Below, in pieces: positions 1,656 to 14,965 of a DNA stretch of 21,570 nucleotides (within the stretch, counting starts at the first letter, position 1; each line of letters starts with the position of its first letter). Origin of the DNA: a virus. The notes beneath the pieces are model-generated. The model did not search any database. It saw nothing but the letters and a program-made list of their open reading frames with translations, and was not told the DNA's origin. The translations under genes were made by a program, and so were the position numbers. The stretch lies in IMG/VR virus record IMGVR_UViG_3300025809_000151, positions 1-21,570 of that record, one strand, 5' to 3'.

Positions 1656-1869
1656 CGGCTTCGTCGTCTGCTCCAAAGTCAGGCAAGAGGGTACTCAAGG
1701 TGCCCATGGTGTCGGCTTTCTCAGGTGCCACGATAATATGGTTGTCCTTGAGAAACTGACGTACGGTGTTAAGCTCAGAAGGGGAGATGTCCCCCGACTG
1801 GAGCCTTTCCACGAAGTGATCGGTCATCAACTGCTGGATCAGGTCCAGCGAGTTCTTAATTGTAGACAT
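1633..1869 (-). CDS. terS: Terminase small subunit, T7 gp18-like
   Basis: Small packaging subunit expected to recognise concatemeric DNA and load the large terminase. The product has 78 residues (T7 gp18 has 89). Residues about 20-46, containing SGDISPSELNTVRQFLKDN, have the pattern I associate with the T7 DNA-maturase A family, a short helical module ending in an FLK-DN-type helix. The C-terminus is very acidic (DFGADDEADDQ), a plausible contact with the motor or DNA competitor. A GGAG ribosome site lies at 1880-1877, seven bases before the ATG. Its end overlaps the large terminase start, so the two are probably translationally coupled, as is usual for packaging pairs. Identification rests mostly on size and position; sequence similarity is weak but consistent. 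Confidence 0.85.
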   Translation of the reverse strand: MSTIKNSLDLIQQLMTDHFVERLQSGDISPSELNTVRQFLKDNHIIVAPEKADTMGTLSTLLPDFGADDEADDQTTFN

Positions 1870-1883
1870 AGATATGCTCCATA

Positions 1884-1910
1884 CGGCCCTGTGAAGCTCA
1901 CAGAGCGCCG
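1884..1910 (-). promoter_or_regulatory. Leader hairpin before the small terminase gene
   Basis: The minus-strand transcript can fold CGGC-(GC bulge)-UCUGUG, loop AGCUU, CACAGG-GCCG: ten pairs with a two-base bulge. It ends four bases before the GGAG ribosome site of the small terminase. It has no U-tract, so it is not a terminator. An RNase III-type processing site or a modulator of terminase translation is possible; T7 late mRNAs carry RNase III sites between genes, but nothing here proves processing. Confidence 0.45.
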
Positions 1911-1939
1911 TTGAGGTTATTCTGGGGTGATTGTGAGGG

Positions 1940-1974
1940 AAAACCCCCAGAGGCTCTGTACGAGCTCCTGAGGG
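1940..1974 (-). terminator. T7-like rho-independent terminator hairpin, copy A
   Basis: On the minus strand, 13-base arms CCCUCAGGAGCUC and GAGCCUCUGGGGG pair around a GUACA loop with one A-C mismatch, followed by UUUU (1943-1940). It starts eight bases after the stop codon of the LamG gene and precedes the small terminase. It is 28/31 identical to the hairpin at 6115-6085. Leaky termination here would lower terminase expression relative to structural genes; an RNA-processing role is the alternative. Confidence 0.75.
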
Positions 1975-1982
1975 CTTCCTAG

Positions 1983-4900
1983 TTAGGGTGTATCAGTGAC
2001 TAGATCGGCTGCACTAAAGTTGTACCCTGTGAGTGGTGCGTTCCCACTAAGATCAGAGATGGAAGTAGTTGATGCTTCAATCTCGTAGTAGTGCGTAGGA
2101 GCAGAAGCCAGTTGGCTCAAGTCCTGAGTAGCTCCAGAGTTGTAGATAGCTGCTAGGTTAGCAGACTGGTCTGAACCCCAAATAGCTACTTGGTTGATTA
2201 CACCGCTGTAGTAGTTGTTGTGGACGTTACTAGCACGCCCAATGCGATAGATGTTGTCGCTTGGGTTAGCACCGCTAAGAGCGCCGTCATAACCCCCGCC
2301 AGAAGCAACACCTGTAGGTGTCTGGAGTACACCATCAACATAGATGCTGAACCTGCTGTAGTAGTTAGCAGCATCGGCACCGACACTTCCTGTAGTGCCC
2401 CCGTCAAAAGTGACCAGTACGTGTTGCCACGTATTAGCTGTAAAAGCATTGCCACAGACAAGGATGATGTTGTTGTACACGGTACCGTAGTTCAGAACTA
2501 AACTTGTACCACCATTTTGCTTCAGAGTGATTGCTCCGCCATTGTAGTCATCTCCAGCACCATAAACCATCAAGGTCTGAGTAGATGTTGAGGATGATGG
2601 CTTTACCCACATCGATACAGTCCAAGCACTGCCGTCACCGTTTGTTGCCCGTTCTAAAGCAGTTACGTTGACAGGGTTTCCTTGAAGCCAGTTGGTAGAA
2701 CCATCTAAATCTATGGACTTAGAGTTAGTGTAAGCGGCTTGTGCCACGTTAAGTGTAACCGTGAAGTCAGTAGACCCACCTACAGCGTTAGCAGCCTTAC
2801 AGTTAATGACATACGCATCGGAGCTTCCTGTGAAAGCTGGGGCAGTCCCGATAATAGCGCCAGTGTCTTGAACCATTACAGCCCACGCCGGGGCGTCAAT
2901 CTCAACGTACTGGTTCACGATGTCCGAGTTTGCATCTAAAGCGATCTGAACGTTAAAGGCCTGACCTTCATCAACAGTAAACGCTTGATCAGAGATGTCA
3001 GGTGCAAAGTCGGTCACAGGCTGAGAGCCTTGACCAATCGTCTGCTTCGAGATTACAGGGATCGAGTAGTATGCCCTGTTGCCTTTTACGCCGAAGTACA
3101 AGTGAATAGGTGATCCGTCACCATCTACCTTAGCCGTCGCAACCTTCTCGTTGTTGTCCTCAGAGAAGATCGTGATCGAGTTGTCGGACAAGTAACGCAA
3201 ACTGAACAAACCTTGCGCCAAGCCAGTACCAGTAGTGCCGGAGGTTGAACCCTTCCGGTAACCCACTACACCACCGCCGTTGTCAAAGTAGTACGTAGAG
3301 TTAGTGTTTACATTCCAGTCACTTACGCCGCCAAACTCGAAATCAAGGGCTTCGTTGGTTTCGTACGTAAACTGGTTATCTAGCTGTTCCTCAGCAGTCG
3401 AGACGCCTGTAGCAGCGTTCGTGTAGTTAGTCCCAAAGTAGTCGCCTTGACCGACTTCATCGAGCATAAACGTCAGCTTCTCGCCGGGACTAATAGACAG
3501 TCCAGACTTTAACACCGTGTGGTCAAGGATGCCGTTTATGATCCCGCCTTCAGTATTGGCGAAGTCGTGTGCAATTTCCCATATAAAGTCATGGCTGTCG
3601 ATGATGCCGTTAGGGAACACACCGCCAGACCAACAGCCCATCTGCAAGTTGAACTCAGTAACAGCTAAGGGAATAATTGTCTTAGCGATCTCAGTCTCAG
3701 TCCCGCCAGACAGGGCGAGCAGTGTGAGGTGACCATCACTGCCGAACCGAATGCTTAGCGGGTCATTGTCTGCAACAACGTATTGCGTACCGGTGATCAG
3801 AGCAGTGTTAGTGCTATCGATAAACCGAGTGCCGCCATTAAGGAATGAGAAACATGTCTGCCAGTTGTTAGGGTCAGTTTGACCGTCGCTAAATGTTGTC
3901 GCCGCTTCAGCGCCATCCCAGATACCAAAACGCATCTGCTGTAACACGCTTACGTTCCACTTAAACTCTTGGCCACGCTTCAGCTTCTGACCGAAGTAGT
4001 ATGGGCCTTGAGTGTTTAGGTTTTCACCACTAGCCATCACGTAAGCAGACGTTCCAGATGCTACCTGTTGATCGGCATTGGTTCCGTAAGAGATGTACCA
4101 ACGGTCGTTAGTTGCAGACTGTGTGCTACCATCAATCATGTTGGACACGTCAATAGTTACTGTAGAAGCATCCGTCATTGTCAAAACCAAGTCGCTGCCA
4201 TTAAGCGCACCACTGGCCACAAAGTTGTTTGTGTCTACGCCCAGTGTTGTCACGTCTACTGTGTACGACGTACTGTCTTGTAGGGTAATCACAAGGCTGT
4301 TGTTGACCATCGCAAAGCCGGTAACCGGGTTAGGAGTTACAGAACTTGCAAAGCCAGCCGTGTTTGTAAACAAGTTGTTGAGCTGAGTAACCGCTTGGTT
4401 TAGAACGGAATTTACCATAGAACCGTCGATGCTTACAGCGTTCACAGGCAGGCTCTCAATAATTATCTTAGCGCCGCCACGAACCTTTATCTGGATCTCA
4501 GTACCGTTAGCAGTTGCTTCTAACGTGTTAATTGGATGTGGGACCAACAGGGTATCCGTAAGGGTCAGGTCACGTAATAGAATAGATGAACCCGTGCTTT
4601 CCAGCCCGAAGTCCATCGCCTTGTACTTCAGGTACGGACTAATTAGTTCGAGGTCCTTATCTTCGTACAGACGGTTGTGGACGATTGCTTGGTAACGGAA
4701 TAGGCCCGTGTTGGGATCTACAGTGTCACCTTGGCGTACTTGGAATACACCCAAGTCTACATCCGTAGCGTTGTCTACCTTCTGGATAACTGCTCGAAGC
4801 GTCGTACCCGCATGGACATCTACCGGGTGATCGAAGAACCACTCAATGACATCACCGGGGTAGATCACGGTGCCTGCTGACGACCGAGGAGCGTTACGTG

Positions 4901-5423
4901 GTAGCTCCTGCATATAGACCTGCTTACCGTTAATGATGATGCGGTACTCAAGACGTACGGTCTCAGGGACCTCTTCAGCGGCTACCGTAGTAATGCCAAC
5001 ACCAGAGATGTTTATACCAAAGTAGTTGTCTCCGTCATAACCCACAGAAGTCAGTGGATCGGGAGCGCCTCCCAGCGGTAATGAAAACATGTCTGTGTAG
5101 ACACGACCACTTGGAGGTACGAAGCCTGAAGCACCACGGTTTTCAGTAACGCTCTGATCTTTCAACCCACCCCACATGGGAAAGAAGTTGATGTCAGAGC
5201 TAAGGTTGGTGAAGTAGATGTTCTCAGAGCCAGACGACATCTTGTGCTGCTCACCGAGGTACAGCGAGTTAAGCGTCGTTTCAATAGCTTTGTCTGAAAT
5301 AAGACGACGTGTATTTTCGTCGTATTCCCAGTGGGATAGGAACTCAGTCTGATCTTCAGTAAGGCCATCTCCGCCAGAACCCGACTGAGGGATCATGTTC
5401 CCCTTCATGTTGTTATCTGGCAT
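1983..5423 (-). CDS. Large LamG-domain virion/adhesion protein
   Basis: Predicted 1146-residue phage structural or host-attachment protein; no T7 counterpart. The order seen is a beta-rich N-terminal region (1-435); two similar beta-sandwich-like modules (about 438-621 and 621-792); a putative Ig fold (about 803-896) of the He_PIG kind, with VDEGQAFNV and GTAPAFTGSSDAYVIN; and a C-terminal Laminin_G_3/concanavalin-like domain (about 900-1140) with WTVSMWVKPSS, NTWQHVLVTFDG, IYVDGVLQ and INQVAIWG. LamG and Ig modules at a C-terminus commonly bind glycans. I chose the ATG at 5423, one base after the upstream stop, like other junctions here; an ATG at 5483 would overlap that gene by 59 bases. 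It sits between the lysis-type gene and terminase, not beside the fibre. There is no signal peptide or chaperone domain. The domain calls come from motif reading. Confidence 0.8.
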   Translation of the reverse strand: MPDNNMKGNMIPQSGSGGDGLTEDQTEFLSHWEYDENTRRLISDKAIETTLNSLYLGEQHKMSSGSENIYFTNLSSDINFFPMWGGLKDQSVTENRGASGFVPPSGRVYTDMFSLPLGGAPDPLTSVGYDGDNYFGINISGVGITTVAAEEVPETVRLEYRIIINGKQVYMQELPRNAPRSSAGTVIYPGDVIEWFFDHPVDVHAGTTLRAVIQKVDNATDVDLGVFQVRQGDTVDPNTGLFRYQAIVHNRLYEDKDLELISPYLKYKAMDFGLESTGSSILLRDLTLTDTLLVPHPINTLEATANGTEIQIKVRGGAKIIIESLPVNAVSIDGSMVNSVLNQAVTQLNNLFTNTAGFASSVTPNPVTGFAMVNNSLVITLQDSTSYTVDVTTLGVDTNNFVASGALNGSDLVLTMTDASTVTIDVSNMIDGSTQSATNDRWYISYGTNADQQVASGTSAYVMASGENLNTQGPYYFGQKLKRGQEFKWNVSVLQQMRFGIWDGAEAATTFSDGQTDPNNWQTCFSFLNGGTRFIDSTNTALITGTQYVVADNDPLSIRFGSDGHLTLLALSGGTETEIAKTIIPLAVTEFNLQMGCWSGGVFPNGIIDSHDFIWEIAHDFANTEGGIINGILDHTVLKSGLSISPGEKLTFMLDEVGQGDYFGTNYTNAATGVSTAEEQLDNQFTYETNEALDFEFGGVSDWNVNTNSTYYFDNGGGVVGYRKGSTSGTTGTGLAQGLFSLRYLSDNSITIFSEDNNEKVATAKVDGDGSPIHLYFGVKGNRAYYSIPVISKQTIGQGSQPVTDFAPDISDQAFTVDEGQAFNVQIALDANSDIVNQYVEIDAPAWAVMVQDTGAIIGTAPAFTGSSDAYVINCKAANAVGGSTDFTVTLNVAQAAYTNSKSIDLDGSTNWLQGNPVNVTALERATNGDGSAWTVSMWVKPSSSTSTQTLMVYGAGDDYNGGAITLKQNGGTSLVLNYGTVYNNIILVCGNAFTANTWQHVLVTFDGGTTGSVGADAANYYSRFSIYVDGVLQTPTGVASGGGYDGALSGANPSDNIYRIGRASNVHNNYYSGVINQVAIWGSDQSANLAAIYNSGATQDLSQLASAPTHYYEIEASTTSISDLSGNAPLTGYNFSAADLVTDTP

Positions 5424-5424
5424 A

Positions 5425-5679
5425 TTAGCGTACCACCCACGCTTTAGCGTTGCCTGTAGCGACAACCCGCATAGCGTTGGCAAGCACTACTTCGTAAATA
5501 CCGCTCTCAGTGAAGTTACTGATCTCCATGAAGGGACCACCTACGGAGCCTTCAAGCGATACTGTTCCGTCTGTGATCTCTACTTGGAATACACCACGGG
5601 AGTTCTCATCGGAGTTATTAGGGTTAATAGGATCTGAGGTGTAGGCATTGTAAACGCCTGCGGGATCTTTGAACTGCAT
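5425..5679 (-). CDS. Small beta-type phage protein of unknown function
   Basis: An 84-residue protein of unknown function. The central and C-terminal part (VSLEGSVGGPFMEI, then ESGIYEVVLANAMRVVATG) follows a pattern I recognise from small phage decoration or accessory structural proteins: a strand with 'V-L-GS-dG-f', a spacer, then a strand with 'a-r-V-atg'. This suggests a compact beta sandwich, but that is inference. It has a good ribosome site (AAAGGACAG) before the ATG at 5679, begins 10 bases after the membrane protein gene and ends one base before the LamG gene. It is therefore probably co-translated with that gene and may form part of the same virion appendage. Confidence 0.65.
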   Translation of the reverse strand: MQFKDPAGVYNAYTSDPINPNNSDENSRGVFQVEITDGTVSLEGSVGGPFMEISNFTESGIYEVVLANAMRVVATGNAKAWVVR

Positions 5680-5689
5680 TCTCTGTCCT

Positions 5690-6031
5690 TTAATTAGGGG
5701 TCTGTAGTGTTAGCCCATTGGGGCTGGTAGGAAGCTGTGCCGCCTTGAAAGCCAAGGGGATCAGGTCGGGGATAACTGTGGTCGCCAAGAAGACGGTCAC
5801 TGCTATTGCAATTCCCCAGTAAATCATTGAGCGAGACTTCCACGTCTCTAGGTTCCGAAGACGTAGTTCGTGGTCGTCCAGTAGCGCTTGTCGTCGGTCG
5901 ATCTCTTTGATCATTTCACGGATAGCCGCAGTGTTTTCTGTAGCTATTTTGGTTATCGCACGGATTTCCTCCGAGTGACGCCTTACGTCTTCCTCGATGT
6001 AGTCCGTACGGTCCCAATCTTTGTTGGCCAT
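5690..6031 (-). CDS. Coiled-coil single-pass membrane protein, probable holin or XhlA-like holin accessory
   Basis: A 113-residue protein with a charged heptad-like N-terminal half (about 8-65, ending DDHELRLRNLETWKSRS) and one hydrophobic segment (about 69-95, MIYWGIAIAVTVFLATTVI), then a short polar tail. This matches the haemolysin XhlA-type arrangement, in which a cytoplasmic coiled coil precedes a C-terminal membrane anchor; such proteins assist or act as holins. T7 places its holin gene 17.5 at the same spot, between the fibre and the small terminase. It has a strong AGGAGG ribosome site five bases before the ATG and follows directly after hairpin copy B, which separates it from the fibre operon. 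An inner-membrane spanin is less likely, since those usually have the membrane anchor at the N-terminus. Confidence 0.7.
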   Translation of the reverse strand: MANKDWDRTDYIEEDVRRHSEEIRAITKIATENTAAIREMIKEIDRRQALLDDHELRLRNLETWKSRSMIYWGIAIAVTVFLATTVIPDLIPLAFKAAQLPTSPNGLTLQTPN

Positions 6032-6080
6032 ATGAGCCTCCTGAGAGCCGTTACGGGCTTGGGTGAGTAGTTATATAGGG

Positions 6081-6115
6081 AAGACCCCCAGAGGCTCTGT
6101 GTGAGCTTCTGAGGG
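6081..6115 (-). terminator. T7-like rho-independent terminator hairpin, copy B
   Basis: On the minus strand, arms CCCUCAGAAGCUC and GAGCCUCUGGGGG pair around an ACACA loop, followed by UCUU. Compared with copy A at 1974-1940 there are three changes in 31 bases: two in the loop and one in the stem that changes G-U to A-U and so keeps the pair. It lies 15 bases after the glycine-rich adhesin gene and before the membrane-protein gene, dividing the fibre block from the lysis/LamG block. Confidence 0.75.
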
Positions 6116-6130
6116 CCGTATAGAAGGTGT

Positions 6131-7031: not shown

Positions 7032-10000
7032 TTACACCACCGTTAAGTTAGCTGAGGACAGTACAACAACCGTACTAGAAATCACTGTTACAGTCATAAG
7101 GGACTTATCAGCAAGTGTAGTTGTACTAGCACTAATATCTGTAGCAGACCCATCTTCACGCACCGTAGTAAACCCTGTGTAAGCAAGGGTAACAGCAGCG
7201 CCTGTGTTGTTGTAGACTGTGCGGATGTCTCCCGACAAGAGGTTAGTATTTACCAGCGTCAGCGTCGTCGTAGTTGCATCAGACAGGTCACTGATACCAG
7301 ACCCACTAGGGGAGTGGTCGGCAGTTGTTGGGCTATCCAATTGCGGGGTATTGTCAATAGAGACAACGATGTCTACATCAGCAGAGCCGTTGAAGCTCAC
7401 GGAACCCGTTGCGTCACCACTCAAGGAGATCGTACGGGGAGTCGTAAGGTTATCAGCGGTTGCCAGTGCAGCAGACACTTCAACGAACGCAGAGCCAGAC
7501 CAGCGGTAAGTCTTGTTGTCACCTGTAGTGACGTAGATCTTGCCTGTCTGCTTGTCTGCCGCTTGGAGTGCGTTGAGAGCCGTGAGGTCTACAGCTTCGA
7601 TAATGTCGTCTACGTAGCTAGGAAGCTGTGTAGCTGGGACCTTACCATCAGTGTCCAGCCCAGCGACGCCGTTAGCGATACCGATGGACGTAGAGTTGAT
7701 CTTAGCGTTCAACTCAGTCTGTAGGTTGGTTACATCGGCGATAGCGTGTGTGTGAGCCGAAGGAGCGAAGGTAGTAGGTACACCTGTAAGGGAGCTGTAG
7801 GCACCATCAAAGCTACCAGAGACAGTCTGAGGTTCCCACGTACTACCTGTGTCATTCCAAGCGAGTACCTGACCGTCCGTCGGAGCAGTCGCAGATACAT
7901 CCGAGTGGCTGTCCAGAGCGTGAGCCGAAGGATTAAACTCCGTAGGTACGCCTGTAAGAGTGCTATAGGCACCATCAAAGTCAGCACCAGCGCCGTCTGC
8001 AAGCCAGAGACCTGCAAGACCTACTTTCCAAGTAGTCCCTTGGTTTGATAGCGTCCCGTTGGACGAACTAGATACCATCTCAATCGCAACATCATCACTC
8101 CATGAAGCTATTAGTATGCCGTCACGTCGGTGGATGGTAACAATGTCCTGCGAGTACCCATCACCCGAGAAGATTTGCCGCTTATCACCTGTTAGTGTGG
8201 CGTTCGTGTCGATGTATGCCTCTACTTCTAACCAGTACAAAACCGGCTCAGTATCTTGCCCGTGGTTCCACGTTAAAATATCTCCACCAGTTCCGAAGGT
8301 ATTTGTTTGTACCTTGGTCTGCTCAATGACAGTGCCGAAGACACCGCCACCACCGCCACCACCAGCGATAGTCTGAGGTTCCCAAGTACCCCCAGCGTTG
8401 TTCCAAGCGAGCGCCTGACCGTCCGTAGGAGCCGTAGCAGCTACATCTGAGTGACTGCTTAGGGTGTGAGCAGACGGTGTGAAGTCCGCAGGTACACCTG
8501 TAAGAGAGCCGTAGGCACCATCGAACAACGTAGGTGTGTCCGTGAGGCTGTTGTAGCTACCGTCGAACAACGTAGGTGTGTTCGTGAGGCTGTTGTAGTC
8601 ACCGTCGAACAACACGGGGAGGTTCGTGAGGCTGTTGTAGTTACCATCGAACAACTCAGAGGCGTTCGCAAGTTCAACCCAAGAGCCACTGTGGGCAAAG
8701 TAACCCTTACCCGTAGCGTGTACATGGGCAAACATGCCGTGGTACGAAGAGGCGTTCGGGAGGTCTACGAGGTTGGCGTAGACGTTGGAGTACGTGATCT
8801 GGTTATTACCAAAGTCAGCAGCAGCGTTAGGCTGTAGAGCCGTGTCCGCAGTTGTACCCTGAGCAGACGTTGCGTAGTCCGTAGACGCAGTAGCAGCCGC
8901 CGTACCGAGGGTAGGGCTTCCTGTAAGGGAGGCATACGTACCATCGAAGAGCACCGGCTGGTTTGAAAGGCTGTTGTAGTCGCCATCAAAACCCTGAACA
9001 ACAGAGGTCGTTACACCAGTTACGTGACCGTAGGTATCAAACGTCAGGCCATCAACAAAGGTATCAGTCGTAGCTGTAATGTCGGTCTGCGTAGAGGTGT
9101 CGGCGTGGGAGATGGTACCAGCAGAAGTTACGTTTGCACCGGTCAGACCAGCACCTACGATAACCTCAGTAACCGTACCAGAACCTGTACCGTTAGCACC
9201 AGCGGCACCCTCGGGGATAGTGAAGTCGAGGATAGCAGCACCAGTGGTGCCGGAGTTGGTAACAGTAACAGTAGTACCCGGTGTGCCTGTAGTGACCGTA
9301 CCTACGGTAACCGTAGCGGCATCACCAACGAGACCTTGGATACCTTGGGCACCAGCGTCACCTTGAGTACCCTGAGGACCGGTTTCGCCTTGGAGACCTT
9401 GGATACCTTGGACACCCTGAGTACCTTGGGCACCCACGAGGCTTGCAAGCCAAGCAGTCTCATCACCGATAAAGCCGTCAGCTACGGCTACAAGGTAAGC
9501 GCTAGTACCCGCTGGGCCGGTAGCGCCTGCGTCACCTTGGACACCTTGGAGACCCTGCACACCCTGAGGACCAGCTGGGCCTGTTTCACCCTGTGGGCCT
9601 TCAGGACCCGTGGGACCTGCAACACCCTGCATAGAGCTAAGCCATTCAGCTTCAGTACCTACAAAGCCAGCATCTAGCGCCGCCTCGTAAGCGGTATCAC
9701 CGTCTGGACCTTGAGGACCTTGAGGCCCTGTAGCGCCTGCTGGACCGGTTCCGCCTTGGAGACCTTGGGCACCCGTAGGACCCGCCGGGCCTGTAGCGCC
9801 GGTAGTACCAGTTACACCAGTGTTACCTTGGGGACCTGTGGCACCCTGAGGACCTGTGGGACCCTGAGGGCCTTGAGGACCTGTAGACGCCTGATCACGG
9901 GCTTCTTCGGCGATGTCACGGTTAGACTTCAGGGCAAACTCGATGTCCGTAGGGCGGATCACAGAGCCAGCAGCGAAGGTGAATACATCATCTTCAGCAG

Positions 10001-10226
10001 AAGTAACTCGTTTAATTTCAACCTGCTCACTAGCCGCAGGAGCCGGAGAGAGGGTAACTATGGAAGTGTCGTAGTCGAGGGAGACTGTAAAGTTAGCCGT
10101 TACGTCATCGTTGGTGGCCGAAGTGTAGACCGTGGTGATAACGTAAGTGTCCGCAAGACTATCGAAGGGGTAGGTGAAGGCTGTAGTTGAGCCGTCGCCA
10201 TCATAGAGAACAACAGTGTCTGCCAT
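7032..10226 (-). CDS. 17: Tail fibre, T7 gp17-like N-terminus with collagen-like and repeat shaft
   Basis: Trimeric host-recognition fibre of 1064 residues, about twice T7 gp17 (553). Residues 1-115 match the T7 fibre N-terminal domain that attaches to the tail ([43 protein letters not shown]). Residues about 112-300 are collagen-like Gly-X-Y repeats broken by two short modules ([20 protein letters not shown] and [20 protein letters not shown]). From about 410 a shaft uses 14-residue FDGxYxSLT repeats and two 52-residue SHSDV/APTDGQ/WEPQT blocks around a roughly 124-residue inserted domain. The C-terminal third has [13 protein letters not shown] and [20 protein letters not shown], common in marine phage fibres, and ends in a beta-rich tip. 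An AAGGAAAAGGA ribosome site precedes the ATG. There is no recognisable intramolecular chaperone. Confidence 0.92.
7824..7979 (-). repeat. Fibre 52-residue block, copy 2
   Basis: Second in-frame copy of a 52-codon block, starting [15 protein letters not shown] and ending GSTWEPQT. It is 40/52 identical to copy 1 at 8370-8525. A third, partial copy ([21 protein letters not shown]) follows immediately downstream and then diverges. The repetition probably reflects duplication of shaft modules. Confidence 0.85.
8370..8525 (-). repeat. Fibre 52-residue block, copy 1
   Basis: First copy, starting [15 protein letters not shown] and ending GGTWEPQT. It is directly followed by a run of seven Gly (GGT/GGC-type codons near 8345-8365) and a roughly 124-residue domain that has no repeat, after which copy 2 begins. 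This looks like an insertion of a globular domain between duplicated shaft units. Confidence 0.85.
8487..8654 (-). repeat. Four tandem 42-bp coding repeats in the fibre
   Basis: Four exact-period 42-bp units encode the 14-residue unit LFDGxYxSLTxxPx (Leu codons at 8654, 8612, 8570 and 8528). Related single units lie further upstream in the gene ([14 protein letters not shown] and [14 protein letters not shown]). DNA similarity between adjacent units is high, so unit number could change by slippage or recombination, altering shaft length in frame. Confidence 0.9.
9320..9893 (-). repeat. Collagen-like Gly-X-Y region of the fibre
   Basis: Encodes three stretches of Gly-X-Y triplets rich in GPQGPQG, GPAG and GLQG motifs, separated by two non-collagen modules of about 20 residues at residues about 177-197 and 239-260. 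Such regions are expected to form triple-helical rods in a trimeric fibre. Pro is frequent in X, while Gln, Glu, Asp, Ala and Thr dominate Y, typical of bacterial and phage collagens, which lack hydroxyproline. Confidence 0.88.
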
Positions 10227-10273: not shown

Positions 10274-13200
10274 CTAGAGCTGCTCTCCGTCTGTTACAAA
10301 GAGTTCAACCTCTTTACGTTCAAAGTTAGTCATGGTTTCGAAGACTGCGCCGCCTCGACGTTCTTCTACAAGCTTCTCTACCCGCTTAAACTCAGCAGTA
10401 GACGATGCTTTAAGATCCGCCATAAACTTGTTATATGCCGCATCTCGATAACCTTTAACGATGTCCTGAAGTACCTTCTCAGGTCGCTGCAAGGCATCAC
10501 TGCCAGTGTTATCCTGTGTAGCTGGATCCTCACCCGCATTAGCCGCCGCTTTAAGAGTGCGGAATGCAACATTGAGTTCAGACTTCTCCTCTGTGAACTG
10601 CTCGTAGAGAGCATCATCGAGGGTAACCGGAGCTTCGTTAGCTCTCACAGGGAAGGTAGCATTCATAAGGCTTGCCGCCACAGCATCCGCAATGGACTGA
10701 CCGCTCTCAAGATACACCAGCGAAAGGTCAATCTCGGTACCGGGTACCATGACCTTGTCTCGGGAAAGGTCTACACCATACTGGAGCTTCATCTCCTCCA
10801 AGTATGCCTTGGACTTGTAAGCCTCAGCTTGGTTCGACATAGGAGAGATACCACGGCCAAAGCCGGGTGTGAGGTGACCAGTGACAGAGCGCCGCTTGTT
10901 ACCCACGTTCCACTCACCGATTGCCTGTAGGTTGTAGAAGTTTTCTTTAAGAGCCTCACCGGGGTTCTGCATGATGTCTAGCCTAGAAGAGCCACGCATC
11001 AGTTCTTCATCCACCACAGTCTTGATAGACTTTTGCAGTGGGTTGAAGGGTGAATATGCGGCCCCCTTGGACAACGCCCATTTCGCCAGAGCATCCTCAG
11101 GCCGCTTAGCATCAAACAGCTTCATGTTACTCTGAAGGCCACGCACAACAGACTGCTGACCGAAGGTAGCGTTAGTTGCGATAGCGAGAACATTCCCTAC
11201 GTCCTGAGCCATGTTAAGCTCATCTGTAGTGCGGGAGGGGCTGTCAATGTAGTCGAGAACGGAGGTAGTCAGAGCAAATGCTGCAAAAGGGGTGAGCATC
11301 TCAGCAAAGTTAAAGGTAAGTTCCTTACCGTCAGCCTCTATGATGATACCTTGGTCAGTCTCTCCGAACTTGGAGGAGACGCCCTTAATACGAAACTCAC
11401 CGGGATCGGGGAGATACATCAGTTCTTCATCGTCGTCTGCCGTACGGTTGAACGTCCATGCAGCAACCGCAGCGCCCATAGCAGCCGCAGGGCCAGCTAG
11501 GTAGTGGGCACGCATACTGTCGATGACACGCTGATCGGTTTCAACCTCAAGAGGCCGAGGGTTACCGAACTGATCCTTTACTGTCTCGCCCATTCCAAAG
11601 CCCATCTTTGCACGGGTTGTTTTAGATAACAGGGAGAAGCCGGGAATAGCCATGAAGAGACCCTCACGGCCAGTACGGAGGCCCATCCCAAAGAACGGGA
11701 ACAGCGTCTTAACTGTCTTAGCGACTGCGTTGTTCTTACCAACTAACTGCTCAGCGCCTTTGATTGCACCTTGCTCTTTGTTACGGAAGCCACTTTCAGC
11801 CGCAAGCCTAATGTAAGCAGTGTCGTAGAAACGTCCACCAGCTTCAGTAAGTTCTGCCTTGTCACGGAAGGACATGAGCATAGCGCTCATCTCATCATCC
11901 GTCAGGTATCCATTCTTCTTTCGAAGGTCCTGCCACTTCTTCCCATAGAGACCCGTGAGGGCATCTAGTTCTACGTTGTGGTGGTAGAAAACTTGAGTAG
12001 AGAACTCAGAGATACCCGCAATGATACGGTAGGAGGCTGAGCCTAGAACACGCAGCCCAGCACGGAGGCCGAGCGTAGGAATAACGCCATTGATCTTAGA
12101 AGTGTCATTCCAAATGTCCTTGATGGACTTTGCACGGGTCATCTCAGCAGTAGCCATACCAAGGCTGTCAGCGGAGTTGGAGAGGTCCGCATTGGAAGTA
12201 CGCCACACTGTAGCGAACCCCTTGAGGCCCCTACGTAGCTGCTTACGACCCTCAAAGAACAGAGCGCCCTTCTTAGCGATACGAGCGGTTTCTCCCAAGT
12301 TACCCTTAAAGGCTTCCGAGAGTGCCCGTGTGAGGCCACCTAAAGTACCGAGGTATGCCATACGCAGTGGCTCAACTACCATGTTGAGGGACCACACGTT
12401 TGCAGAGAGCAGCATGTTACCCTGACCGAACAGGAGGGTATCATCGAAGAGGGTGTTACTTTCATCATACTTCAGGGCAGAAAACTTCTGCTTACCCTTA
12501 GCTGTACCAGCCTCAAGAGCCTGTAGTTTCTGACCGAGTGCCTGTGGGGTGATCTCACCACGAGCGGCCTGAGCGTTGAGGATGTCCTCCATCGCCTTCT
12601 GGCCCTTAGGTGTGCGTACCTCACGAGCAGCACGAAGCAGTTGAGCGCCCTTACGGACCTCAGCCTTTTGCTTGGAGCCGATAGCAGCAGCGTCAGCTTG
12701 TAGCTCACGTACCGCAGCAGCAATCATAGGGAACTGCTTAGGGGACGTGTTTAGCTCTAGGATCCACTCTTCACCGGCTTCCTTAAGGAGCGGCGTGAGT
12801 TCCTCCATGGACTGCTCACCACGTAGTACCTTGCCGAGTACATCGATCTTACGTTCGATACCCTTGAGGTACACTAGGCGGGTGTTGAAGTCGGCGATAG
12901 CATCAGGAGTGTCCAACTCAATGAGCATAGACGCTGGGATGTTATCTCCATACTCCTTACGGAGCATCTTGAGGGTCTTCTTAGCGGCTGACTTAGCGGC
13001 AGGGAAGGTGGTACGTGAGCGGTCGTAGCGAGCCTTCATAGACCCCTTAACAGCGTCAAGACCATCAGCGATATCGTCATGTCCGATAGTAGACACAAAG
13101 TCTTTCATACCGGTCATGTTGTTAAGGACTTCAGGCTCTACGTCATCTTTAAGAGCAGCGCCTGCCGCCAGCTTGTTTTCTGCTGTACGAGCCGCTGTAT

Positions 13201-14965
13201 CAGTGTCACGCATAGCGGCACTAACACGCTGGGCTACTACGTTATTGTAAGGAGCCTTAGTCGTTGTGTCTGTCGTAGGGGTAGCCTTAGGGGTCGTTTC
13301 GGACGCTGGGGTTTCCACCACGCCTGACTTACTGTTAGCAGGAGCCTGTGCAGAGTTCAGGAGATCGTTCTGCTGCTGCGCTGCGTTATCCAGCATACGT
13401 TCCGCAGGGTCTCCAATCTTATTGTTTACACCATCACCAGCGTTAGCCAGTAGTGAGGCCTGATCATCGGAGGCCCCCTGAAGGAGGCGTTCCGCAGGGT
13501 CTTCGATCTTGTTGTTTACACCATCACCAGCGTTAGCCAGTAGTGAGGCCTGATCATCGGAGGCCCCCTGAAGGAGACGTTCCGCAGGGTCTCCAATTTT
13601 ATTGTTTACACCATCACCAGCGTTAGCCAGTAGTGCGGCCTGATCATCGGAGGCCCCCTGAAGGAGACGTTCCGCAGGGTCTTCGATCTTGTTGTTAGCA
13701 GGGGCTTCTACGTTGTCGAGGAAGGAACGGTTGAGTGCCTCAGATTGCTCTAGAGCTAGTTCCGCCTGCGCTTCAATAGCGATACCCCGTGCGTCGTCTG
13801 CTGCCTTGGTTGCACCTTTAAGGTCACCCTTGGCGAGAGCCGTTACACCAGCACCAGCGATTTCACCTACGGTACCGAACAGGCCACTCTCAGCGAGGAG
13901 CTTTGCACGGTTCAGCAGAGGCTCATCTTCTACCTCAGACATCCACAGGGGAGCAGAGGTACCAAGAGCAGTAACAGCGTTCTGAATAGCCAGCCCGTCG
14001 TTTTCCTCAAAGATGATCTGATCGATAGCAGCAGGCTTTGCGATAGCAATACCAGCTTTTGTTAGTACACCAGTGGCACCGAGACCGCCGCCTGTGAAGG
14101 CTGACAATACGGCGAACTCAGAGATCTCCTTTACGAAACCACCTGAGACGCTGTCGATCTGATCCATCTTTGCGAGTAAGGCGTCATGCTCTTCAGCCTT
14201 CTGTTTGCCAGTGTACTCCGAGGAGGCCGCAGGGAAGGCTTCCCGGTAGGCACGCATGGTGCCATGAGTAAGCTGATACTCACCTTGAATACCTTGCTCA
14301 AAAGAGTTCTGAGGAACCTCAGGTGCATCCTTAGTGATAAGTCCGAAGAAGAACTTACGAGGCTCACCGGGTTCTGGCTGAGCATTTTCGTTAAGCCACG
14401 CTAGTTCCTCAGGTGACTGGGGTGTCAGCTTGAAGAACCCTTCAGAGCGGTCGTCTTTCAAAGGCTCAGGCAGAGATGTAACTAACTTCTCGCCTAGCTT
14501 GTCCAACGACATTTCAGCTTGTTCAACACCAAGGCCCACACCTTCAATAAGGTCGTTACCCTGCGTAGGGGCTAACTTCCGTACATCGTTGGCAACAGCA
14601 CCAGCCACGTCGCCGATAGCCTTGAATGCCCCTTGGTATTCTTCAGCGTCAGTGTCAGCGTCGTCAGCCTCAGGTACGTCTTGGATCTCCGCTGGGAGTT
14701 CTTCGAGTTTACGTGCGGCTGCTCTGTGGCGTGTACTGCTTTCATCCAGAAGGTGTAAGCCAGCAGCACCATGCTTATCTCTAAGAGCAAGGCGGTGAGC
14801 TTCATATTCTACGTCGTCTTTTTTTAACCCCCCGAAGTAATGGAGGTGGGCGATAGCCTTGTCTGATAGTTCCGGGTGAGCTTCCTTCATGGATGCTCCG
14901 TACGGGGTATAATCACCGAGGTCGTTGACCACCGATGCAAGGATATTCGTTTCATTGTCCGCCAT
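10274..14965 (-). CDS. Large internal virion protein, T7 gp16-like ejection protein
   Basis: A 1563-residue protein in the position of T7 gp16 (1318 residues), which is ejected and spans the inner membrane to help pull DNA in. Assignment rests on size, order after the gp15-like gene, and architecture: long alpha-helical stretches, a small-residue hydrophobic segment (about 285-322, GGGLGATGVLTKAGIAIAKP) and another near 1151-1172 (AGPAAAMGAAVAAWTF). Residues about 424-522 are three and a fraction copies of a 30-residue repeat, followed by a Thr/Pro-rich linker (TPKATPTTDTTTKAP). I found no lytic transglycosylase signature (Glu-Ser followed by a G-x-x-G-L-M-Q-type motif) at the N-terminus, unlike T7 gp16. 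It starts 20 bases after the gp15-like gene, with AAAGGA upstream. Confidence 0.82.
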   Translation of the reverse strand: MADNETNILASVVNDLGDYTPYGASMKEAHPELSDKAIAHLHYFGGLKKDDVEYEAHRLALRDKHGAAGLHLLDESSTRHRAAARKLEELPAEIQDVPEADDADTDAEEYQGAFKAIGDVAGAVANDVRKLAPTQGNDLIEGVGLGVEQAEMSLDKLGEKLVTSLPEPLKDDRSEGFFKLTPQSPEELAWLNENAQPEPGEPRKFFFGLITKDAPEVPQNSFEQGIQGEYQLTHGTMRAYREAFPAASSEYTGKQKAEEHDALLAKMDQIDSVSGGFVKEISEFAVLSAFTGGGLGATGVLTKAGIAIAKPAAIDQIIFEENDGLAIQNAVTALGTSAPLWMSEVEDEPLLNRAKLLAESGLFGTVGEIAGAGVTALAKGDLKGATKAADDARGIAIEAQAELALEQSEALNRSFLDNVEAPANNKIEDPAERLLQGASDDQAALLANAGDGVNNKIGDPAERLLQGASDDQASLLANAGDGVNNKIEDPAERLLQGASDDQASLLANAGDGVNNKIGDPAERMLDNAAQQQNDLLNSAQAPANSKSGVVETPASETTPKATPTTDTTTKAPYNNVVAQRVSAAMRDTDTAARTAENKLAAGAALKDDVEPEVLNNMTGMKDFVSTIGHDDIADGLDAVKGSMKARYDRSRTTFPAAKSAAKKTLKMLRKEYGDNIPASMLIELDTPDAIADFNTRLVYLKGIERKIDVLGKVLRGEQSMEELTPLLKEAGEEWILELNTSPKQFPMIAAAVRELQADAAAIGSKQKAEVRKGAQLLRAAREVRTPKGQKAMEDILNAQAARGEITPQALGQKLQALEAGTAKGKQKFSALKYDESNTLFDDTLLFGQGNMLLSANVWSLNMVVEPLRMAYLGTLGGLTRALSEAFKGNLGETARIAKKGALFFEGRKQLRRGLKGFATVWRTSNADLSNSADSLGMATAEMTRAKSIKDIWNDTSKINGVIPTLGLRAGLRVLGSASYRIIAGISEFSTQVFYHHNVELDALTGLYGKKWQDLRKKNGYLTDDEMSAMLMSFRDKAELTEAGGRFYDTAYIRLAAESGFRNKEQGAIKGAEQLVGKNNAVAKTVKTLFPFFGMGLRTGREGLFMAIPGFSLLSKTTRAKMGFGMGETVKDQFGNPRPLEVETDQRVIDSMRAHYLAGPAAAMGAAVAAWTFNRTADDDEELMYLPDPGEFRIKGVSSKFGETDQGIIIEADGKELTFNFAEMLTPFAAFALTTSVLDYIDSPSRTTDELNMAQDVGNVLAIATNATFGQQSVVRGLQSNMKLFDAKRPEDALAKWALSKGAAYSPFNPLQKSIKTVVDEELMRGSSRLDIMQNPGEALKENFYNLQAIGEWNVGNKRRSVTGHLTPGFGRGISPMSNQAEAYKSKAYLEEMKLQYGVDLSRDKVMVPGTEIDLSLVYLESGQSIADAVAASLMNATFPVRANEAPVTLDDALYEQFTEEKSELNVAFRTLKAAANAGEDPATQDNTGSDALQRPEKVLQDIVKGYRDAAYNKFMADLKASSTAEFKRVEKLVEERRGGAVFETMTNFERKEVELFVTDGEQL
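13398..13696 (-). repeat. 90-bp in-frame tandem repeat in the gp16-like gene
   Basis: A 90-bp unit occurs three full times plus a partial copy, with identical period (unit starts at 13398, 13488, 13578 and 13668). Copies differ at only a few bases, mainly GAC/GGA-type changes giving NNKIE or NNKIG. The unit encodes 30 residues containing DPAERLLQGASDDQASLLAN and then AGDGV. Degenerate flanking copies (PAERMLDNAAQQQNDLLNSA) show older units at the edge. Confidence 0.93.

Follow-up and report, generated by a model that had tools for sequence, protein, structure and literature searches.

The 1146-residue protein encoded on the minus strand at positions 1983–5423 of the window (the whole 21,570-nucleotide stretch of viral DNA that we analysed, from IMG/VR record IMGVR_UViG_3300025809_000151) is probably an accessory adhesin fibre of the virion, apart from the T7-type tail fibre and docked through an N-terminal peptide in the product of the 84-residue gene upstream, g84. 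The fibre gene opens with an ATG at 5423 and closes with its stop codon at 1983–1985 (included in the interval above), and a single base lies between the stop of g84 (5425–5679, minus strand) and this ATG. As the frame is kept at 46–73% amino-acid identity along its length in dozens of viral contigs, which hold full-length relatives, it is coding beyond chance. The T7-like context that had been proposed from the sequence was borne out by family searches, which identified T7-type TerL and TerS, tail tubular proteins A and B, and a capsid protein; among isolates, Roseobacter phages have the closest TerL (59% identity). These searches also identified the window's own gp17-type tail fibre at 7032–10226, which has a PF03906 start and collagen repeats; several tandem short repeats are present in it as well. 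A 1563-residue candidate internal virion protein at 10274–14965, which had no PHROG match, contains several copies of a ~30-residue repeat (NKIEDPAERLLQGASDDQA...).

A Pfam scan of the whole fibre protein returned one family only, the LamG domain PF13385 at residues 928–1084 (2172–2642; 53.6 bits against a cut-off of 27.6, E=3.7e-14), and the Ig domain He_PIG PF05345 scored above its cut-off only when residues 797–896 (2736–3035) were scanned alone (25.9 bits against 24, E=1.4e-5), with five relatives scoring 26.5–34.1 bits for the same domain. The large protein with C-terminal Ig and LamG domains described in the original prediction is thus real. Besides these two domains there was no Pfam, NCBIfam or PHROGs match anywhere in the 1146 residues; the first 435, which had been said to match no recognised family, indeed gave no match above threshold in the three collections, and sequence and fold searches of solved structures likewise placed the N module in no known family. 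Comparison of N-termini delimited an anchor peptide at residues 1–21 (MPDNNMKGNMIPQSGSGGDGL; 5361–5423), made of a GNMIP motif and a Gly/Ser linker. It is followed by a conserved N module at residues 22–372 (4308–5360), predicted to be all-beta and delimited from the alignment of relatives, AF2 and viral structural relatives, and by a ~70-residue beta repeat at residues 373–442 (4098–4307), present here as a single copy and recognised from insertions and copy numbers in relatives. Two predicted beta sandwiches of the same ConA-like (galectin/SPRY) type come next, M1 at residues 443–640 (3504–4097) and M2 at residues 641–796 (3036–3503), and the protein ends, after the Ig and LamG domains, in 61 conserved residues (1086–1146; 1986–2168) with 59–79% identity between the window protein and its full-length relatives; all of these features, like the gene itself, are on the minus strand.

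The AF2 model of residues 22–442 was almost all-beta with moderate confidence (mean pLDDT 70), and a fold search of the N module against the PDB gave low TM-scores and no family or clear fold; its matches in a viral model library were phage proteins, including Vibrio and Colwellia phage relatives and a phiPsa267 tail fibre. For the M1–M2 region (residues 443–850, mean pLDDT 78) Foldseek matched galectin, SPRY and LNS beta sandwiches, with a best E-value of 1.7e-5 and TM-scores to about 0.5 on the target, and M1 and M2 had a weak profile match to each other. Sequence searches of solved structures with the N module and with M1/M2 gave nothing credible. Folds of the galectin, SPRY and LNS types commonly bind sugars or proteins; LamG, by its Pfam match, is a lectin-type fold, M1 and M2 are predicted to be such folds, and the distal domains of the fibre, which we expect to be oligomeric, may bind glycans.

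A scan of viral contigs with the single protein identified 43 loci, most of them full-length with 46–73% identity, and a profile scan with residues 22–372 brought the total to 73 distinct relatives in marine viral contigs, most with the same domain order, which in complete members is anchor, N module, repeats, M1, M2, Ig, LamG and the C-terminal 61 residues. Six relatives (L103, L110, L112 and L115–L117) are missing all or most of M1/M2, and in L028 (2632–5963) the gene is split into two overlapping frames of 980 and 148 residues, by a frameshift or a sequencing error. The N module has 52–83% identity to that of the window protein, and the repeat varies from one to about six copies; insertions relative to the window protein map to this repeat and are 70–72 or 141–146 residues long. 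Among 51 full sets of domains the median pairwise identity was 71% for the N module, 69% for the C-terminal end, 65% for Ig, 57% for M2, and 54% for both M1 and LamG. LamG is therefore among the most variable domains, and its identities had the lowest correlation with those of the N module (r=0.32), as would suit a LamG tip that is exchanged or changes fast. In bacterial and archaeal genomes, the search for the N module gave 91 pattern matches, none of which was confirmed.

The genomic backgrounds of these relatives differ in their terminases, portals and capsids. For instance, the fibre body adjoins a portal-type gene in L006, with a terminase and capsid that differ from those of the window, and a head protease and portal in L016, and it is found with a diverged TerL in the T7-like contigs L018 and L044–L046. 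L006 and L007 are 98.7% identical across 10.4 kb, a stretch that takes in most of the fibre, and unrelated before L007:467, a break that reflects either recent recombination or a contig chimera; as the divergent part of L007 is at a contig end, where an assembly chimera is possible, we dropped this pair as a natural swap experiment. Since the N module is common to phages with unrelated capsids and tails, it is unlikely to be a virion-specific anchor. The suggestion that residues 1–435 form a virion-attachment region therefore holds only in part: an attachment or recognition protein is very likely, but the comparison does not support a single attachment region that would join the N module at 22–372 to the residues before it.

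What is specific to each phage is the first ~20–45 residues, or a longer fused anchor. Before an invariant AIETT the N-termini include short GNMIP-type plugs, MPIREITGVNDG-type starts, collagen-like stretches, and domains of 100–300 residues. In four contigs (L104, L111, L118 and L119) the N-terminal domain is of one family, which a scan of L104 identified as the head-closure family Phage_HCP PF05521 (E=2.3e-6, above the cut-off), and in L104 the fibre gene comes after genes for a protease-capsid protein and an Ad1 head-tail adaptor. The known place of head-closure proteins is the neck, so the HCP-fused fibres of these four contigs should be neck appendages. The kind of anchor also goes with the presence of a small upstream gene, which was found at 20 of the 21 loci with anchors of ≤52 residues and at 5/42 with longer ones (Fisher p=7e-11, a descriptive value, as thresholds were set after seeing the data and related loci, counted separately, are not independent, so that the significance is overstated). 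No convincing PDB match was found for the small proteins encoded upstream at other loci.

The window's small gene, g84, belongs to the PHROG 34406 family. The g84 family and an [NG]M[IVL]P anchor went together (12/12 loci with, and 0/51 without, the latter being the remaining N-module loci whose upstream gene could be read, judged by the g84 profile), and a scan of viral contigs for g84 identified 11 new loci in which the next gene encodes a protein whose body is unrelated. Reading these protein starts by eye, we found the strict motif in eight (L211, L212, L217, L218, L219, L223, L227 and L228) and near variants in the remaining three, NMTP in L220 and NIIP in L214 and L215, which have nearly the same sequence. 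Within the first 30 residues the strict motif was present in 20 of 2,261 distinct ORFs, and all 20 are proteins paired with g84. One T7-like sister, L138, has a g84 with 76% identity and a GNMIP start, with a 235-residue protein and a separate LamG protein in the fibre's stead. These associations support g84 as the putative socket of the fibre, and the two partners would bind each other through the anchor peptide. In a profile search of PDB sequences g84 had no recognisable relative (best E-value 0.068, to a non-phage protein), and it had no profile match to the small upstream proteins of the Vibrio and Psa phages. Three N4-like roseophages (L049, L050 and L051) have a g84 homolog in the middle gene region, adjoining an N4 gp14-like gene (annotated as such in two of these phages) and preceding a 47–49 residue protein, with no fibre beside it; the g84 scan returned two N4-like roseophage loci in which g84 precedes such a protein, and starts of these short proteins such as MISGMFKPMLSGMFP look faintly plug-like. 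The neighbours of g84–fibre pairs include a major capsid gene directly before g84 (L061 and L069), a nearby gpJ-like tail protein (L027 and L113), and in other pairs terminase and tail genes; these being mixed and contradictory, we dropped gene neighbourhood as a guide to the attachment site.

The g84 gene, the fibre gene and intergenic sequence form a cassette (1864–5689) that is replaced by a 139-residue gene in the sister phages L133 and L134, whose DNA is 96.5% identical to that of the window across TerS/TerL and 98% identical on the far side of the cassette. The cassette is absent from L135 and L207 (TerL 97–98%), in which TerS directly follows a 113-aa-type gene. The fibre is likely an accessory, mobile adhesin with an exchangeable anchor. 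Two 40-nt copies with 90% identity, at 1936–1975 and 6077–6116, flank the 113-aa gene, g84 and the fibre; each has, on the minus strand, a hairpin followed by T-rich sequence and folds at about -24 kcal/mol (z -3.2 and -4.6, respectively). They are probably terminators, and they could possibly serve as recombination sites. The unusual placement between lysis and packaging genes that had been remarked on stood on its terminase side and was weaker on the other, as family searches of the neighbouring ORFs recognised no lysis gene beside the fibre. The 113-residue ORF at 5690–6031, which has a membrane-like segment, is kept in sister phages and had no Pfam, PHROG or NCBIfam match, may be considered the likeliest lysis-related candidate in the window.

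In the mechanism that we favour, residues ~1–21 (GNMIP and the Gly/Ser linker) would dock into a virion-sited g84, the N module and the expandable beta repeat would form a stalk, and the two ConA-like domains with Ig and LamG would offer surfaces for binding the host or the polysaccharide on its surface. Other phages carry this body in cis, fused to an anchor of their own that in one group is a head-closure protein. The fibre would be part of the virion, where it probably serves as an additional arm for grabbing the host, next to the usual T7-type tail fibre. We more tentatively put forward a plug-and-socket system, in which g84 and several unrelated virion-bound adaptors might each accept one particular short peptide, letting phages of different types swap whole fibres by the plug alone, or fuse a fibre in cis to head closure or another virion protein. 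Accounts of receptor-binding fibre exchange usually have the N-terminus conserved and the tip swapped. In these phages the pattern is mainly the reverse, with a conserved body that travels and a virion-specific plug that changes, across unrelated capsid and packaging genes. The original prediction had proposed looking for N-terminal conservation with C-terminal swapping; some C-terminal swapping does exist, LamG correlating least with the N module and other bodies following the same plug, but it is not the dominant pattern, the commonest exchange being at the extreme N-terminus. If g84 and its peptide are a docking socket, the choice of fibres open to a marine phage would follow a rule that can be tested, and accessory receptor-binding proteins would be predictable from a short N-terminal motif.

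Where such an arm would sit bears on the alternatives. It may specifically be a capsid or neck fibre, like the head spike of RcGTA, with g84 as its capsid-bound base, a placement that we regard as quite possible though somewhat doubtful. The HCP fusions point this way, as do the g84 genes that immediately follow the major capsid gene in L061/L069, the fibre genes directly after a portal-like gene in L052, L059 and L062, a relative in Vibrio phage D63 just after head closure, and the RcGTA precedent itself (PMC7296036); however, other relatives adjoin tail genes, and g84 has no sequence similarity to a solved base protein. Those tail-gene neighbours (tape measure and tail fibre in L024, tail fibre in L010, the gpJ-like proteins of L027/L113), along with a relative in phage PWH3a-P1 annotated as 'tail protein', would instead suit an ordinary second tail fibre or spike placed directly on the T7-type tail, with g84 an unrelated small virion protein or an assembly chaperone. 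We consider this unlikely: the gp17-type protein already fills the tail-fibre slot, in four contigs the HCP fusion speaks for the neck, and the plug–g84 association is kept with unrelated downstream bodies, which a body-specific chaperone does not predict.

That the protein is a secreted or lysate adhesin outside the virion is very improbable, given its late structural gene position, its fibre-like architecture, the fused anchors that include head closure and collagen, and a possible analogue in phage phiPsa374 that is proven in virions.

The T7 gp17-type tail fibre is likewise a modular fibre of a T7-like virion; however, PF03906 was absent from the 1146-residue protein in the Pfam scan, and the window has a gp17-type fibre of its own. 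Syn5 is a marine T7-like phage with structural genes, gp53 and gp54, in the interval from tail fibre to terminase, between TerS and TerL; we take these two to have a role in the Syn5 horn. A 15-protein search gave profile E-values of 0.15 or worse for the fibre and g84 against gp53/gp54, and we rejected horn homology. We also rejected CRP-804 gp45 (638 residues, between TerS and TerL) as a counterpart, as it had no match to the fibre profile; by eye this protein is ribonucleotide reductase-like.

Closer relatives were found in Vibrio and Colwellia phages, with the N module present in PWH3a-P1 (YP_007676031), S4-7, D63, VP16T (orf29T), 340E47.2 and 9A at profile E-values of 1.8e-48 to 5.8e-13, and by profile these and the window fibre are one N-module fibre family. 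Like the window fibre, those of PWH3a-P1, S4-7, D63 and VP16T have a gene of 78–91 residues directly upstream; the Vibrio and Colwellia proteins, which are uncharacterised, differ in having other anchors and no full-length match. In phiPsa374 an 87-residue gene and then a fibre gene lie just before TerL, and with Syn5 this possible analogue shows that a placement near the terminase is not unique. The phiPsa374 protein gp055, which by our own mapping from gene order and size is RefSeq gp165, was found in virions by mass spectrometry with 44 unique peptides (PMC9796965). Its phiPsa267 homolog is a Foldseek match to the N module, and by eye the start of gp055 looks like the D63 anchor, but the protein gave no significant match to the N-module profile, and we regard it as an analogy or a remote homology at most.

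The layout proposed for g84 and the fibre is that of the RcGTA head spike, in which a pentameric jellyroll base, Rcc01079, holds a flexible, capsule-binding head fibre, Rcc01080, bound by residues 2–10 (PMC7296036). The fit is one of layout, as the search of solved structures related g84 to no base protein by sequence; with 325 residues the RcGTA fibre is shorter, its peptide is made of Ile-Ala-(Leu-Gly) repeats and not NMIP, and its base sits on capsid pentamers, a location that for g84 would be hypothetical. In RcGTA a short N-terminal peptide holds the fibre to a small base, an arrangement that genomic association makes a candidate for the window pair, and the fibre of RcGTA binds a surface polysaccharide, as that of the window may also do.
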